Shown here in pieces: positions 2,076 through 24,159 of a DNA stretch of 48,810 nt. Position numbers and translations under genes: made by a program. Below the pieces are notes generated by a model. The model saw only the letters and a list, made by a program, of their open reading frames with translations. It searched no databases and was not told the origin of the DNA. Numbering within the stretch: position 1 is the stretch's first letter; every line of letters begins with the position of its first letter. Source of the stretch: a virus; IMG/VR virus record IMGVR_UViG_3300009154_000082, positions 1 to 48,810 of that record, one strand, 5' to 3'.

Positions 2076-3590
2076 TTAAACCTTCTTTGGTACTTGCGTT
2101 ACGTCAACATAACGCTTCTTAGCACGAGTTACACCAACGTACACCAAATTTCTTTCCTGATCAGTCTGCCATTGCATAGTGCACTGCTTACCCATAATCT
2201 CATTACGTCCAAGCAGATAGACAGTATCCCATTCAAGACCTTTAGCACGATGAACAGAGCATAGTAGAACCTTGTTCTTATGTCCATTCAAATCATCAAC
2301 AAAAAGACCTTCAATCATCTCAATAAGAGCATCCTTGTCCTTAAGTCTCATTTCCTTTGCACGTTCAATCAGAACGATCAAAGTTTCTGCACGATCAGTG
2401 ATAAAATCAGTGCGTTCTACACCTTTCTTCTTAGCACGATCAATTTCCTTTTTCGTCCATTCATTGACATGCATCTTAAGTTTATCAAAATCCTTAGTAC
2501 GCCACTTCTTGGCAAGTGAAATCAAATTACTACCAATTTCACGACCTTCAATCTTTGCAGCTTTGCCTTGACGAATAAACTTAAAGCAAAGATTGACCAG
2601 ATACTTGTTATAGCGTGAGAGAATGACTTCACCAGGCTTTACCATATCAGGCAGGTTGTAGTACAGAATGCTATCAAGTTCACCTTCAGCAGTGCTCTCA
2701 TGAGCTTCAATGCCAGTAACGTAAGTCTGCGCCAGTTCAACTACCTTCTTAGGGCAACGATATGTCACCGAAAGAGGAAGCGTGATAGCATTAAAATCAT
2801 CACGAATTTGATCAAGTGCATCGTTATCAGCACCAGTAAAGCCATAGATTGCCTGATATGGATCACCAACAGCTAGCATACGCCCAGTAGGCTTCAGCAT
2901 ACGCTTAGCAAGTTCACGGCGAGAAGGATTAGTATCCTGCGCTTCATCGATCATAACCCAATCATACTGCGGCATTTCAAGGTTCATCTTGAGAGGCAGG
3001 TAGATCATATCATCAAAATCAATATTTTCAGAGTTGTTGAAATCATAATTCAACACTTCTTGACAAAACTTGATCAGATAATTCATTTCTGAACGATCAT
3101 CAAAACGCTCAGGAAGATTTTCATCAAGACCAAAGGTCAGGATCATGTTTTCCCAAACATCAATTTGATCAGGAATAATTGCACCAATACCACGTTGCTT
3201 AGCCATAGATACAATACGAGAAATCTGAAAAGCTTGCTTATCGAAATCATCATCCTTATGACTATTATCATTTAGGAATTTGATCATACCAAAAACCTTA
3301 TTGGACGGACTACCAATATTTGGCATAACTTTACGAATAGCCTGATAGCCAGCAGAATGGAATGTGCCAGCCTTGACGTTGAACATACCCTTACAACGAA
3401 GAAATAGTTCATCCGCCATCTTCTTGTTAAATGCACCAAGAAAAATGTCACCCTTCATGAGCTTTGCAGCTTCGATGATAGTGGTGGTCTTACCAGAACC
3501 AGCCTTGGCATCAACAATGATGGAGCCGATTGATGGATCAGTCACAGCATCAAAAATTGCTTGCTGATATGCAGAAGGTACAAATGTCAT
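2076..3590 (-). CDS. SF1 DNA helicase, UvrD/Rep/Dda-like
   Basis: 504 residues with helicase motifs in order: Q-motif region (YQQAIFDAV), Walker A AGSGKTTT (~residues 30-37), VMIDEAQDTNPSRR (motif II), YRCPKKV (motif IV region), and near the C-terminus VHRAKGLEWDTVYL (motif V) and YVGVTRAKKR (motif VI). It is shorter than UvrD (about 720) and close to phage Dda (about 440), so the 2B-type insertions are reduced. Expected role: 3'-5' or Dda-like 5'-3' strand separation at replication or recombination forks. AAAGGA precedes the ATG. Its own promoter overlaps the end of the upstream small gene. Confidence 0.9.
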   Translation of the reverse strand: MTFVPSAYQQAIFDAVTDPSIGSIIVDAKAGSGKTTTIIEAAKLMKGDIFLGAFNKKMADELFLRCKGMFNVKAGTFHSAGYQAIRKVMPNIGSPSNKVFGMIKFLNDNSHKDDDFDKQAFQISRIVSMAKQRGIGAIIPDQIDVWENMILTFGLDENLPERFDDRSEMNYLIKFCQEVLNYDFNNSENIDFDDMIYLPLKMNLEMPQYDWVMIDEAQDTNPSRRELAKRMLKPTGRMLAVGDPYQAIYGFTGADNDALDQIRDDFNAITLPLSVTYRCPKKVVELAQTYVTGIEAHESTAEGELDSILYYNLPDMVKPGEVILSRYNKYLVNLCFKFIRQGKAAKIEGREIGSNLISLAKKWRTKDFDKLKMHVNEWTKKEIDRAKKKGVERTDFITDRAETLIVLIERAKEMRLKDKDALIEMIEGLFVDDLNGHKNKVLLCSVHRAKGLEWDTVYLLGRNEIMGKQCTMQWQTDQERNLVYVGVTRAKKRYVDVTQVPKKV

Positions 3591-5380: not shown

Positions 5381-6295
5381 TTAATCTCTCTTATCGTTCT
5401 TATTACCATCAATAAGTTTCAAACCATATTCATTGATTTGATTTTGTGGAATAAAACTTGCTTTTCTTTTCAGCGGATTATTCTTAAACGGACTATAATC
5501 CACATGATGATGCCAGCGATTAAACTTCCATACAACAGATGCAATATCAGGATATGTATCTGCTAGCATTTTAGACTTAGCAAGTGTACCTTCAACTTCA
5601 TAGAAGTCTTTGCTGTTACCACCACTCATACGCTGAGTAGTGACCTTGCCTTGTAGAAAAGCATTCAACTGAATAGTTGCCCATCCAGCACTCAATACAT
5701 CTAGACACAAAATAGTGTCTTCATTGTAACGACCACGCCACTTAAAAGGAATGTCATTACGAATGAGAAGACAAGAATAAATCCTTGTATTCAAAACATA
5801 TGGGTTAGCTTTAGCATCACACTTACAGAAAGAATAATAGTTAAAGCCAGCAATTGCTAGGTTTTCATATCTATCTACAAAATCTTCAGTCGCCACAAAG
5901 TTAACATTTGTTCTCATAGGAGACTTCATATTTCTATTTAGACGATGAAAGTCATCAAGATTATCATCCAGTACCCAATGCCAAGCATGACCTTCTAACA
6001 TAGAATGATCCCATGCAAAGTTACGTGCTGGACCAGGCCCTGTGCTCTTGGTCAATCCAAGATCATCAAGAACCTCATATTCTTCCTTGTACTTCTTAGG
6101 AAGGATCAGAAGCTTATCTGCACCGACCACTTTAGCATATTCGTCAAACTCTTCTTCCTCTACGATAACCCTAAATGGAACGCCAAGTCTATTCAGCGCC
6201 CTATTGGTCAGCATATTTGTATATCGACCTTTCGATACGATATACACAGGATAGCGGTTATCACGCTTATTCTTGTATCCAACGCTTTGCAGCAT
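5381..6295 (-). CDS. TET-associated DNA glycosyltransferase (TAGT family)
   Basis: 304 residues matching the TAGT pattern: YPVYIVSKGRYTNMLTNRAL (from residue ~15), VIVEEEEFDEY, a glycine-rich GPGPARNFAWDHS, HWVLDDN (DxD-type metal/nucleotide-sugar site), NTRIYSCLLIRNDI, WRGRYNEDT and MSGGNS. TAGT enzymes add sugars to 5-hydroxymethyl-pyrimidines made by phage TET/JBP dioxygenases, protecting phage DNA from nucleases. No TET or hydroxymethylase is in this window. The gene overlaps the next upstream gene by 29 nt, so the two are translated together. Confidence 0.85.
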   Translation of the reverse strand: MLQSVGYKNKRDNRYPVYIVSKGRYTNMLTNRALNRLGVPFRVIVEEEEFDEYAKVVGADKLLILPKKYKEEYEVLDDLGLTKSTGPGPARNFAWDHSMLEGHAWHWVLDDNLDDFHRLNRNMKSPMRTNVNFVATEDFVDRYENLAIAGFNYYSFCKCDAKANPYVLNTRIYSCLLIRNDIPFKWRGRYNEDTILCLDVLSAGWATIQLNAFLQGKVTTQRMSGGNSKDFYEVEGTLAKSKMLADTYPDIASVVWKFNRWHHHVDYSPFKNNPLKRKASFIPQNQINEYGLKLIDGNKNDKRD

Positions 6296-10530: not shown

Positions 10531-11235
10531 TTAAACTTCTTCACCTGTATGGTGAATTTTTGCATTCAACTTATCTAGCAGACCACGATTACGAAGGTCT
10601 TTATAAACAACATTCTCAACAGAAAATTCACCACCATGATGCAAACCAGCACCACGCATTGTATGTAGCTTATCTTTAAAAGCCTTGATTTCTGCTTCTG
10701 TGCCACTTTTTAAAAGTGTTCTAATATACTTAACATAAAAATTAATCTTGTCAAGTACCTTTGGATCATGAAGTACATCTAAATGCGTAAGATGTTTTGG
10801 AACAATTAACCATTTGTTTTCAAGGATAGAGAATACACCCTGTCCCTTTGGAAAATGATCTTTGTTATTAGCAGCATAAAACTCTATTGGATAACCAGCA
10901 ACCTTCAAATCCTTATGGTTGCTTGTCCATGAAACTTTTTTATCATAAAGCTTATCGCTGTCTAATCCACTCACATCACACATCAAATGAACATCGATAT
11001 CAGAGAATTTGGTGTAGTTGTAATTGACATTACCGCCAGTAATAACAATATCTTTGATACGGTTTTTACTTACGCCAGAATAGATGGCAAACTCATATGC
11101 TTTTTTGATGAGAAGATCAGCAATACCATCTTTAAGTTGATCATGATGCCAAATCTTTGGATTAAGCTTACCATGATACTTCAACGTAAGTTGTTTGATT
11201 AGTGATTCTTCGATGAATGATTTAAAAGGTTTCAT
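10531..11235 (-). CDS. Nucleotidyltransferase-fold protein with a capsid-targeting-like N-terminus
   Basis: 234 residues. It starts MKPFKSFIEE, matching the capsid tag. Around residues 67-88 it has VITGGNVNYNYTKFSDIDVHL, the GG/GS...SDxD signature of Pol-beta nucleotidyltransferases; EFYAANN may supply the third acidic residue. The C-terminal half is helical and basic. Relatives include tRNA-modifying NTase toxins and nucleotide second-messenger enzymes; the substrate here is unknown. An exact TATAAATA late promoter lies 29 nt upstream and GAGGA precedes the ATG. Inference: late-expressed and packaged. Confidence 0.75.
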   Translation of the reverse strand: MKPFKSFIEESLIKQLTLKYHGKLNPKIWHHDQLKDGIADLLIKKAYEFAIYSGVSKNRIKDIVITGGNVNYNYTKFSDIDVHLMCDVSGLDSDKLYDKKVSWTSNHKDLKVAGYPIEFYAANNKDHFPKGQGVFSILENKWLIVPKHLTHLDVLHDPKVLDKINFYVKYIRTLLKSGTEAEIKAFKDKLHTMRGAGLHHGGEFSVENVVYKDLRNRGLLDKLNAKIHHTGEEV

Positions 11236-11448: not shown

Positions 11449-11523
11449 TGGTACTTCCAACAGGATTTGAACCTATGACCTACAAGGTATCGGCTTGTTG
11501 CTCTACCGCTGAGCTATACTGGC
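11449..11523 (-). tRNA. tRNA-Ile (GAU), poorly paired acceptor stem
   Basis: Good D-arm, anticodon stem ACAAG/CTTGT with loop CCGATAC (C at position 33 instead of T), T-stem ATAGG/CCTGT with loop TTCAAAT, A73 and encoded CCA. The acceptor strands GCCAGTA and TGGAAGT form only four of seven pairs. Its 5' end is 4 nt from the terminal helix of the large RNA candidate. Confidence 0.65.
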
Positions 11524-11527
11524 ATTA

Positions 11528-12545
11528 AAACTTTTTAAATCTACCCTGCTCTAGAGCGAATTTTGGAGTCAGGTGCTTCCTCTCCTAAGCCATTGCTAGG
11601 GTTATGTCAGTGAGGGCAAGATGGCCCTATCCTCACATAGTGTATGCGTCCATACACGCTATCCCCAGCAGAGTAGATTTAAAAAGTTTAGAAAAGCATG
11701 AGATTACTGCTTTTAATGAGAGCCTTTGAGCCGTACCAAGTCCCTTGCGAGGATTGTTAACCCGTTATCCACTAGAGCTTTTTACAGTCATCTAGTATCT
11801 CTCAGTGCTGCCTTTTTTAAGGTCTGGCGTTTGACCTGTCATACTATGCTATTCATCCATCATTCTTCCGCCTACCTTTAGAGCAGTTAGGAGCCGCTAA
11901 GCTCTTACGTTTTCAATCCGAACAATCACTTCAACCTTGCGAGTATCCATGAACCACATTCCCTTTCGAGTGTGGTATTAAGCACCTTTCACATAGTACC
12001 GTAGCAGACTTTGCGTTTTTTTGTTTGATTTGCGATCAGACACCTAAAGTTTGTGCAAAGTAAGAAACCTACCAAGATGTGCTGCTACTGCTGCTTCATA
12101 TCCTTTTGGGATACAAAATACTGCACACCTCCTGTCTTTCGTCTTGCGAACTACTCAACGATCATTCAAGTCTCCGGTCATCCCTTCAACTCTGTGACTG
12201 CTATCTCGCCTTTCCCTGCAAGGTCAGACTCAATAACTACCTGTTAACATTCAGCAATCGTAGTGTTGGTATGCCTTGGCACAGGTACCACCCCGTTTAG
12301 CTACTCACCGATATGGCTCTGTAACCTATCCTTTCGGACCTTCGACCACTACTTACTGCCTACCGCCATTCTACTGACGGACCCTTTCGGGTTTGTTCAG
12401 GCTTGCATAGATGGACCATCGCTGGCGCAGTTACGTAGGAGTCTCTGCTTTAGGGTCAGTTGCCCGACCTTACCCTAATGACGCTATACCGCCATTTAAC
12501 TGTTTAAAGCTGTTATCGTCATTCAGACGGTGATTCGCTTTGTTG
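11528..12545 (-). ncRNA. Large structured non-coding RNA candidate (GOLLD/ROOL-like size and context)
   Basis: About 1 kb inside the tRNA array without a plausible gene on either strand. Read on the minus strand from the promoter at 12551-12579 it is dense in hairpins: AATGACG/CGTCATT, TTAGGGT/ACCCTAA, ACCC-GAAA-GGGT, TCC-GAAA-GGA, GTATCC/GGATAT, CCACACTC-GAAA-GGGAATGTGG, AGGTC/GACCT, ACTAGA/TCTAGT, GTGTATG/CATACAC, AGGGC/GCCCT, several with GNRA tetraloops. It ends in a 22-bp helix (11668-11689 with 11528-11549, one G-U). GOLLD and ROOL RNAs are 0.6-0.9 kb, phage-borne and near tRNAs; membership is inference. tRNA-Ile, -Leu and -Arg follow on the same strand. Confidence 0.75.
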
Positions 12546-12550
12546 AACTC

Positions 12551-12579
12551 AGTATAGTGATTCGCTGTTTTTATGTCAA
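12551..12579 (-). promoter_or_regulatory. Near-consensus sigma70 promoter for the large RNA
   Basis: TTGACA (12574-12579), exactly 17 nt, TATACT (12551-12556). The spacer ends in GCGAATCAC, the element shared by other promoters here, and GCGAATCAC occurs again about 15 nt downstream of the -10. Confidence 0.8.
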
Positions 12580-12607
12580 CAACTATTTTTCACTATCTTA
12601 AAAATCT

Positions 12608-12690
12608 TGGTGGGTGACTGTGGTTACGCTCCACTCCCCGAAAGGTCGGTTTTACAGACCGACTGCCGAAACTATCGACTTTAGCCACCC
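12608..12690 (-). tRNA. tRNA-Tyr-like (GUA) with abnormal D- and T-loops
   Basis: Acceptor GGGTGGC/GTCACCC (7 bp), A73 and encoded CCA; anticodon loop CTGTAAA on a strong stem; a short extra arm CCTTTCGGGG as in class II tRNA-Tyr. The D-loop (ATAGTTT) lacks GG, and the T-loop is AGCGTAA instead of TTCNANT, so the normal elbow contacts cannot form. Identity elements for Tyr are kept. It may be a divergent functional tRNA, a decoy or a decaying copy. Confidence 0.6.
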
Positions 12691-12696
12691 TTAAAC

Positions 12697-12867
12697 TTAT
12701 AGACTTTCAATCTCTTTGATTGCTCTGTCTAAAGCTTGAATTTCAACTCCCATGTCGTGAATGCCGTGTGCGTCTTCATTCAAGAGAAACACTTTAGCCA
12801 TTGCCCAACATGCAACTTTACGTTCTTTTAGACTAAGAAGTACACGTTCTTTATTAGTGTTATTCAT
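12697..12867 (-). CDS. Small helical protein, 56 residues
   Basis: MNNTNKERVLLSLKERKVAC then WAMAKVFLLNEDAHG and EIQALDRAIKEIESL. The upstream extension of the frame runs into tRNA-Glu, so the start is the ATG at 12865-12867. The pattern resembles short phage proteins with alternating helices; unknown function. Confidence 0.6.
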   Translation of the reverse strand: MNNTNKERVLLSLKERKVACWAMAKVFLLNEDAHGIHDMGVEIQALDRAIKEIESL

Positions 12868-12967: not shown

Positions 12968-13179
12968 TGAATTTAATTAGTGAGCCTCCAACCCAACAAT
13001 GGAGCATTATGCAGAATTTATTAGCGCCTCTGCTATTGAACTTTCGTTCTTAGGGTACGTTATAAATTGATAGAGAGCAGATGGTTTGTCTATGTTGCGT
13101 ACTTGCACCGTCATCCTTTACTATGTTACAACCGGCCAGTTTACACATAGTGCATTCTATCTATAACACTCACTAAACT
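12968..13179 (-). ncRNA. Second structured non-coding stretch between tRNA-Asn and tRNA-Glu
   Basis: 212 nt with no gene. On the minus strand: CTATGT...ACATAG enclosing AACTGG/CCGGTT; CTGCT...AGCAG enclosing GAAC-GAAA-GTTC (a perfect GNRA hairpin); CTCCA...TGGAG. It would be transcribed with the flanking tRNAs. The style is like the 1-kb RNA candidate. Confidence 0.5.
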
Positions 13180-21829: not shown

Positions 21830-22792
21830 TTAGGCTGCGTCAGCCATCTCAACAGCAGTCTGAAGAGCCTTGGTCTTCAGGTTCTTGTTGACACCGTACC
21901 AAGCGTTGTGAAGGCGGTTGTCAGCAGTACGACCCATGACGTGATCGGTCATGAAGGTCACGGCGTTAAATGCTTGCCACCAAGTACCTTCACCAAGTTC
22001 AGCGCCAGGCTGGACATGAAGAGCTTCAAGAGCGGTACGTGCATTTAGCGACAGTTCCTTCTTTGCTTCAGGCTTCGTGGTAACGACAGGAAAGACACGC
22101 TTGAAGTAGTCAACGATGTTCTCATCATTAAAACGCTTCTGCGACAGGTACTGAGCCATTTCCTTGTACTTGTCGAGCTTTTCCTTGGCAACACCAAGAG
22201 CTTCCTTCACCATGTCACCATCAAACTGACGTGCATGGCTGATCTTAACCATGTTCTTGCTCTTCATGTTGAGCGAGAGGGTCAGGGTGTTGTTGCACAC
22301 AACACGAATAGGAGTAAAGCGAACATCAATCGACTGGCCATACTGGTGAGGATTGGTGAAGTGGAGATAGGCATCAACCTGATCACGGCCATTAAACAGT
22401 TCGAAGCTATCCTTGACCTTGGCAAGTGCCCAAACAATCTTGCCGTCCTTCAGCGAACCAGCAGTATGCATTTCCATGTCACCAGCAGCAACGAAGTCAT
22501 TAAAGAATTCAAAAGCTTCAGTGTTCTGGCAAGGGTTCCAGTCGTCAGAGACGATATCTAGAATGCTGTTATCTGTGTTGCGGACCAGTGCAGAGCGACC
22601 AATATCAACCTGTTCACCGCCGATATTGGCGAAGGCAGGAACCTTCTCTACCGTCCAATCAAGACCAGCAGCCTGAAGCATTTGATCAGGGGTAAGGTCA
22701 TTCGAAACCTTAGTACCCAAAGAATGCCACGGGGTCTCACCAGCGTAAGCCATCTGAGCAACGCCATTGAGCATTTCAAGTTCATGAGACAT
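21830..22792 (-). CDS. DUF932 phage/plasmid-like protein
   Basis: 320 residues. Features of the family: GETPWHSLGTKV near the N-terminus, LVRNTDNSILDIVSDDWNPCQNTEAFEF, FTNPHQYGQSIDVRFTPIRVVCNNTL, SLNMKSKNMVKISHARQF and GEGTWWQAFNAVTFMTDHVMGR. DUF932 proteins are common on plasmids and phages; no activity is proven. The GC content is visibly higher than in neighbours. Promoter at 22843-22871; long leader of ~45 nt. Confidence 0.88.
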   Translation of the reverse strand: MSHELEMLNGVAQMAYAGETPWHSLGTKVSNDLTPDQMLQAAGLDWTVEKVPAFANIGGEQVDIGRSALVRNTDNSILDIVSDDWNPCQNTEAFEFFNDFVAAGDMEMHTAGSLKDGKIVWALAKVKDSFELFNGRDQVDAYLHFTNPHQYGQSIDVRFTPIRVVCNNTLTLSLNMKSKNMVKISHARQFDGDMVKEALGVAKEKLDKYKEMAQYLSQKRFNDENIVDYFKRVFPVVTTKPEAKKELSLNARTALEALHVQPGAELGEGTWWQAFNAVTFMTDHVMGRTADNRLHNAWYGVNKNLKTKALQTAVEMADAA

Positions 22793-23788: not shown

Positions 23789-23805
23789 AATATAATTCCT
23801 TTCGA

Positions 23806-24159
23806 TTAATTCTTGATGAACTTAAACTTGCGACCATCCTTCTTCAGATAGCCAACGAATTCATGCTTGGCAGTATCATCAGCAAACGAAGCATTCTTGA
23901 CCTTGATGACAGTCAGACCTTCACCTTCGCTGGCATACTTCCAATCGCCAATCACAGCATATTCAAGATCAGCATTGGCTTCGAATGCACGATCAGCAGC
24001 AGCTTCGACACTACCAACCAGACGGCTGTACATCTTGGCATAACGGTCCTGATTGTAGTGGCGAAAATAGGAGTGCTTGTAACCGTAAGCATAACGGCCA
24101 ATCTTCACACCATCAACGATCTTGGTGTCCTTGCGGAGAGTGTACTGATAAACGCCCAT
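23806..24159 (-). CDS. Unknown protein, 117 residues
   Basis: MGVYQYTLRKDTKIVDGVKI, then GRYAYGYKHSYFRHYNQDRY and AAADRAFEANADLEYAVIGD, ending KKDGRKFKFIKN. Aromatic-rich alpha/beta protein. First gene of the unit driven from 24188-24216. Confidence 0.65.
   Translation of the reverse strand: MGVYQYTLRKDTKIVDGVKIGRYAYGYKHSYFRHYNQDRYAKMYSRLVGSVEAAADRAFEANADLEYAVIGDWKYASEGEGLTVIKVKNASFADDTAKHEFVGYLKKDGRKFKFIKN

Follow-up and report, generated by a model that had tools for sequence, protein, structure and literature searches.

GOLLD and ROOL are the described RNAs closest to the locus analyzed here. ROOL, a large RNA of phages, occurs near tRNA islands, and GOLLD env-38, the one solved example of its family, forms a homo-14-mer (14-chain) cage; the linker of GOLLD lies inside the cage, and tRNAs carried in the linker have been proposed as cargo, which is the authors' speculation (PMC12286853). 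A third RNA, the abundant non-coding RNA of the lytic phage ICP1, is a structured candidate that its authors compare with GOLLD and ROOL; it is about 800 nt long, comes from a phage without tRNAs and is set beside the RNA described below by description alone (PMC7567579).

The window is the whole 48,810-nt stretch of viral DNA that was analyzed (IMG/VR record IMGVR_UViG_3300009154_000082, positions 1 to 48,810). Within it, positions 11528-12545 are set in a minus-strand array of at least 12 tRNAs. An earlier note, made from the letters alone, had described these positions as one RNA of about 1 kb that belongs either to the GOLLD and ROOL class or to a new one. Here, we find that the stretch almost certainly consists of two distinct RNAs placed end to end, both on the minus strand (Table 1). 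The GOLLD assignment holds for about 850 of the 1,018 nt and the ROOL assignment fails, since the window has no match to RF03087; nor was ROOL matched in 50 contigs carrying the second RNA, a search run without a positive control. The remaining 163 nt at the 3′-end constitute an independent family that has no Rfam entry, and for that part the suggestion of a new class was right. Only these 163 nt are thus new, as an RNA family; the GOLLD part belongs to a known family.

Table 1. Features of the GOLLD and 163-nt RNA region, in window coordinates
Feature	Position	Strand	Basis or remark
GOLLD transcript promoter, TTGACA-17-TATACT	12551..12579	-	11/12 consensus; region kept before GOLLD of L123
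GOLLD RNA, whole, ~850 nt	11695..12544	-	Rfam RF02032; homologues; 5′-end inferred from promoter
GOLLD 5′ domain, outside Rfam model	12132..12544	-	covariation in nine-GOLLD alignment A4
GOLLD conserved 3′ domain	11695..12131	-	RF02032 positions 1-416 of 416, 199.2 bits, E 7.9e-55
GOLLD linker, A-rich; tRNA missing or degenerate	12012..12076	-	MAFFT alignment of nine GOLLDs
Uncatalogued tRNA-array RNA, ~163 nt	11528..11690	-	z -7.1; 82-locus family; no Rfam match
Conserved core of the new RNA	11556..11670	-	R1 positions 1-114, 117.8 bits; window copy in R1 training set
Closing helix P1, 5′ strand	11667..11689	-	fold; own- versus swapped-flank duplex energies
Closing helix P1, 3′ strand	11528..11550	-	fold; own- versus swapped-flank duplex energies
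Hairpin P2, GACG loop	11640..11657	-	6/7 pairs changed on both sides
Hairpin P3 (GUGAGG/CCUCAC); loop bears pseudoknot 5′ strand	11610..11636	-	22 stem sequences
Pseudoknot strand in P3 loop (GGGCCAU)	11621..11627	-	pairs with 11587-11593
Second pseudoknot strand (AUGGCUU), before P4	11587..11593	-	pairs with 11621-11627
Hairpin P4 (GGAG.AGG.AAGCA.CCU..CUCC)	11565..11585	-	outer pairs invariant
tRNA-Ile, anticodon GAU	11452..11523	-	Rfam RF00005, 50.8 bits; 4 nt after 163-nt RNA

Transcription and folding of the stretch

The stretch holds no credible gene, as had been supposed: no open reading frame exceeds 73 aa, and the frames present lie on the strand opposite to the tRNAs. The near-consensus promoter that had been seen pointing into it is equally real and reads 12579..12551. 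Because this promoter is on the minus strand, the RNA reads down toward the tRNAs, and from the promoter spacing we infer a transcription start near 12544. No terminator-like site was found on this strand from GOLLD to the tRNAs, and both RNAs and the downstream tRNAs are probably made as one transcript. Folding energies bear out the earlier description of a highly structured RNA, with most of the signal at the 3′-end: the last 167 nt fold to -66.6 kcal/mol versus -40.1 kcal/mol in shuffles (z -7.1; 0 of 200 shuffles reached this value), and the 5′ part of the stretch departs moderately from its shuffles (z -2.6; 1 of 100).

Two observations concern the DNA around the promoter. The region 12539-12595 matches L123, the contig with the closest GOLLD relative, twice (3146-3202 and 11455-11511); one match lies before the GOLLD of that contig and the other elsewhere in its tRNA array, which suggests a promoter type in common. 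At 12600-12698, also on the minus strand, is a divergent tRNA-Tyr-like gene with the anticodon loop CUGUAAA, a long variable arm, a CCA end and a non-canonical T loop; ARAGORN and the Rfam tRNA model both miss it, and it is conserved in L104, L176, L233, L165 and L086.

The GOLLD RNA and its linker

Searching with the Rfam GOLLD model, as the earlier note had proposed, gave a full-length match of 199.2 bits, against a curated gathering cut-off of 150 bits. Covariation among homologues, another check put forward there, was found in the GOLLD 5′ domain as well as in the 163-nt RNA. The 412 nt preceding the Rfam match correspond in alignment to the 5′ domain seen in other GOLLDs and show covariation. 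In alignment A4 of nine GOLLDs, both sides have changed in 59 of the 78 pairs predicted for this domain, pairing holds in 90.9% of cells (69.6% in shuffles), and the covariation score of 0.703 (versus 0.292) was reached by 0 of 500 shuffles, all for a structure predicted from the alignment on which it was scored, which favors that structure somewhat. When the structure is slid along the alignment, the paired share drops to 34-39%. With a conserved 3′ domain, a structured and divergent 5′ domain, a length of about 850 nt (at least 800 nt is required of the family) and a location near tRNAs in a phage (by its IMG/VR record), 12544..11695 is, as judged from its sequence, a member of the known GOLLD family and adds one more phage member to this group of cage-forming RNAs. 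Its closest relative, in L123, is 87% identical over 855 nt; the GOLLDs of L086 and L104 are each 73% identical to the window copy, and more distant relatives occur in the roseobacter phages DSS3_MAL1 and MD18. Just downstream of GOLLD in these two phages (L002 3414-3822 and L003 3568-3976, respectively) is a predicted permuted tmRNA with the tag ANTNAAPMEMAIAA.

The GOLLD part is ordinary apart from its linker. In all eight aligned relatives the linker holds a tRNA or a tRNA-like sequence, the anticodon differing among them, whereas in the nine-GOLLD MAFFT alignment the window copy has only a short degenerate stretch at this place. ARAGORN or Rfam calls a tRNA inside the GOLLDs of L123, L104, L086 and L210. 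A linker tRNA is a feature of some GOLLD members only and is not required for membership, and the window copy shows that it can be lost. The window GOLLD therefore offers a natural test of the tRNA-cargo proposal for the cage, being a copy without the linker tRNA.

The 163-nt RNA and its family

The Rfam match to GOLLD stops at 11695, and five nucleotides on, the 23-pair helix of the second RNA opens. This RNA stands outside the GOLLD molecule; GOLLD borders it directly on the 5′ side and tRNA-Ile on the 3′ side. The 22-bp helix that had been taken to close the whole 1 kb is real, with 23 pairs, but it closes the 163-nt element alone. Rfam also finds the tRNA-Ile that had been placed beside the helix. 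This tRNA has C for U at position 33 (loop CCGAUAC) and is missed by ARAGORN. Neither ARAGORN nor the Rfam tRNA model detects a tRNA or tmRNA within 11528-11690.

Scanning viral contigs for exact copies of conserved pieces, together with a profile search, brought about 25 further members; the covariance model R1 was built from 20 members, the window copy among them. The 16-base pattern AAGCACCNNACTCCNAAAT returned 72 viral stretches; 61 of the 65 loci scanned after it match R1 at E<0.01, 59 of them complete and at E<1e-10. The family now comprises 82 matched loci with 65 distinct cores. The largest of their viral contigs measures 345 kb, and the pairwise identity of the distinct cores has a median of 0.64 and a minimum of 0.46. 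The pattern AAAAGNNGTAATCTCA was too short and gave chance matches, and few GOLLDs occurred in the sample of its contigs tested with the Rfam model; L146, L148, phage CRP-9 and the Terriglobus contig L228 contain the short pattern and lack the RNA.

Known families do not account for these sequences. The window copy has no match in Rfam 15 at E up to 1, and six diverse member loci have no Rfam match for the new RNA at E up to 0.5, the matches in those loci being tRNAs, spurious tRNA-like hits and one GOLLD only. BLAST of the window, L149, L104, L212, L162, L283 and L277 copies against 50,697 phage records returned no member; at 50-70% identity a 115-nt RNA is easily missed by BLAST, and this result does not prove absence from the phage records. 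An exact-pattern scan of 84,980 bacterial species gave one unconfirmed match, with a pattern that represents a single core subtype. The open-access literature yielded no phage tRNA-array RNA of this kind, and unnamed candidates of large microbiome surveys may include it. The 163-nt RNA is a separate family, strongly supported by covariation, previously uncatalogued and without an Rfam entry. It resembles ROOL in being a phage RNA near tRNAs, but it is four times smaller and is unrelated to ROOL by Rfam search.

The fold indicated by covariation is a conserved pseudoknotted core of about 115 nt, made up of P1b, P2, P3, the pseudoknot and P4, which is closed by the long helix P1. Over the 65 distinct cores, the 25 pairs of four helices are 92.7% paired versus 73.8% in shuffles, 18 of the 25 have changes on both sides, and the covariation score of 0.466 (versus 0.128) was reached by 0 of 500 shuffles; slid versions are 27-45% paired. 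Covariation is seen in all helices, also in the pseudoknot, P3 and P1, which lie outside the structure of R1. In P3, the 65 cores have 22 different stem sequences, which form on average 5.6 bp with their own partners versus 3.3 bp with swapped ones. Five of the seven pseudoknot pairs have changed on both sides, giving variants such as GGCCAU/AUGGCU, GGCUUU/AAAGCU, GGCGA/UCGCU, GGCUG/CAGCU and GGACCAU/AUGGUUU, and the inner P4 pair 95/106 has 28 double changes among the 65 sequences. Outside the helices, conservation is 95% or higher at 22 unpaired columns of the 65 cores, as would be expected of a binding or active site.

P1 behaves differently from the core in that its sequence is free to vary. 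It is 18-29 bp long in most members and is weak or broken in six (the L205 group, L257 and L274). Duplexes formed from a member's own flanks have a mean energy of -26.4 kcal/mol versus -11.8 kcal/mol for flanks taken from different members. The sequence of P1 thus differs between members while complementarity is kept within each, which indicates selection on RNA pairing.

Possible roles of the 163-nt RNA and neighboring features

The genomic setting ties the new RNA to tRNAs. Among 68 non-duplicate loci, 61 have tRNAs, all oriented as the new RNA is, with a median of 10.5 per locus. A tRNA lies no more than 25 nt upstream of the core in 18 of the 68 and no more than 50 nt downstream in 31, with one or the other in 38; at the remaining 30, ARAGORN finds no tRNA within these distances. 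The reading we favor, at somewhat better than even confidence and partly by analogy, is that the new RNA leaves a tRNA precursor by excision and then acts in trans as a phage RNA. One transcript would run from the GOLLD promoter through the tRNAs. The new RNA would be released by tRNA-processing enzymes, with RNase P cutting at the downstream tRNA and tRNA 3′ processing at the upstream one, by RNase III acting on the 18- to 29-bp P1 stalk as in ribosomal RNA precursors, or by both. The precursors of 16S and 23S rRNA have processing stems that are cut by RNase III. P1 may be likened to these stalks, as a long helix of free sequence formed from the flanks of a conserved core that is co-transcribed with tRNAs, but there is no sequence relation between them and the new RNA. 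The weak P1 of some members and the 30 loci without a close tRNA indicate that processing by tRNA enzymes is not general. Once released, the core would act in trans, possibly on a host protein, a tRNA or the translation machinery. Because the gene sits among tRNAs, translation, the tRNAs themselves and tRNA-directed host defense are the obvious candidate targets. A more specific proposal, which we put forward tentatively and at rather less than even confidence, is a new RNA class carried by many large phages, each with a single copy in its genome, and directed at host translation or a tRNA-targeting defense, or else serving as a ribozyme in the maturation of phage tRNAs.

Alternatively, the RNA may act in cis, as a processing signal or insulator of the tRNA array that, in the window, frees the 3′-end of GOLLD and is inert once removed. 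A fixed position beside tRNAs, in places directly between them, would suit such a role, as would the P1 of many members, which starts within the CCA end of the preceding tRNA and so includes it. However, the arrays hold dozens of tRNAs, whereas 38 of the 39 contigs, the longest of 345 kb, have the new RNA once and one has it twice. The neighboring tRNAs are of many species, and conservation resides in the internal core rather than in the flank. The low copy number, together with a conserved core between variable flanks, favors a trans product over a cis signal, and we regard the cis role as unlikely, although it is the most serious of the alternatives. The sole contig with two copies is G089 (L275), at 22245-22357 and 23803-23915.

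Self-cleavage, with the RNA as a ribozyme cutting the tRNA precursor, would fit the compact pseudoknotted fold, the near-invariant unpaired positions and the location at a site of processing. We consider this improbable, as no match to any Rfam family, ribozymes included, was obtained at permissive thresholds, and the cores appear to have no conserved unpaired site beside them that would be an obvious cleavage point.

There is very little likelihood that the whole 1 kb is a single GOLLD RNA with a 3′ extension, as might be thought from the way in which the two RNAs abut within about 5 nt with no terminator-like site between them. The element is absent behind other GOLLDs: it is missing from the entire 99-kb contig L123, which has the closest GOLLD relative, and from the GOLLD-bearing phages DSS3_MAL1 and MD18. 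In L104, the one full comparison, a homologous element (77% identical) lies at 1327-1487, immediately before a tRNA-Thr and about 0.9 kb upstream of GOLLD (~2021-2886). Besides the window, only 4 of the 50 contigs carrying the new RNA have a GOLLD match and 46 have none, many of these contigs being fragments. In those four, the new RNA is upstream of GOLLD on the same strand, at roughly 0.6-2.7 kb, unlike in the window, where it directly follows GOLLD. Its absence beside the GOLLD of L123 and its upstream position in L104 indicate that the domain moves independently of GOLLD, and the single-RNA reading was rejected on all these grounds. We give an equally slight chance to a small mobile DNA element inserted by tRNA genes, with P1 as its terminal inverted repeats. 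Long inverted repeats and tRNA-adjacent sites would be in keeping with such an element, but its repeats would be common to all copies, whereas P1 diverges between members with complementarity kept, and there is one copy per contig; this reading, too, was rejected. That the cores encode a small protein has a negligible probability and was likewise rejected, since none of the six frames stays open through more than 15 of the 65 distinct cores, core length varies from 112 to 117 nt irrespective of frame, and double changes follow base pairs.

Of the two RNAs, the new one matters more, as a strongly covarying pseudoknotted family in the tRNA arrays of large phages that is absent from Rfam. If the trans-acting reading is true, the tRNA arrays would hold in this family an RNA with no sequence relation to GOLLD or ROOL. 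Together with those two, it points to phage tRNA arrays as a gathering place of unexplained structured RNAs. With a core of about 115 nt, it is a far more tractable subject than GOLLD for structural work, the search for a partner and deletion.

Three other minus-strand features of the window deserve mention. A conserved non-coding stretch at 12970-13179, directly 3′ of tRNA-Asn, is 90% identical in L123 and is also found in L126, with partial matches beside tRNAs in L299, L315 and L159; its outer helix appears to covary (GUGAG/CUCAC to AUGGG/CCCAU), and it is possibly a further tRNA-array RNA. On the 3′ side of the GOLLD and tRNA block, 10531-11235 encodes a nucleotidyltransferase-like protein of the phage family phrog_36119, with relatives in cyanophages, Caulobacter phage Cr30 and Maribacter phages. 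Finally, a TET-associated glycosyltransferase (PF20691) is encoded at 5381-6295, which suggests that the phage DNA is hypermodified.
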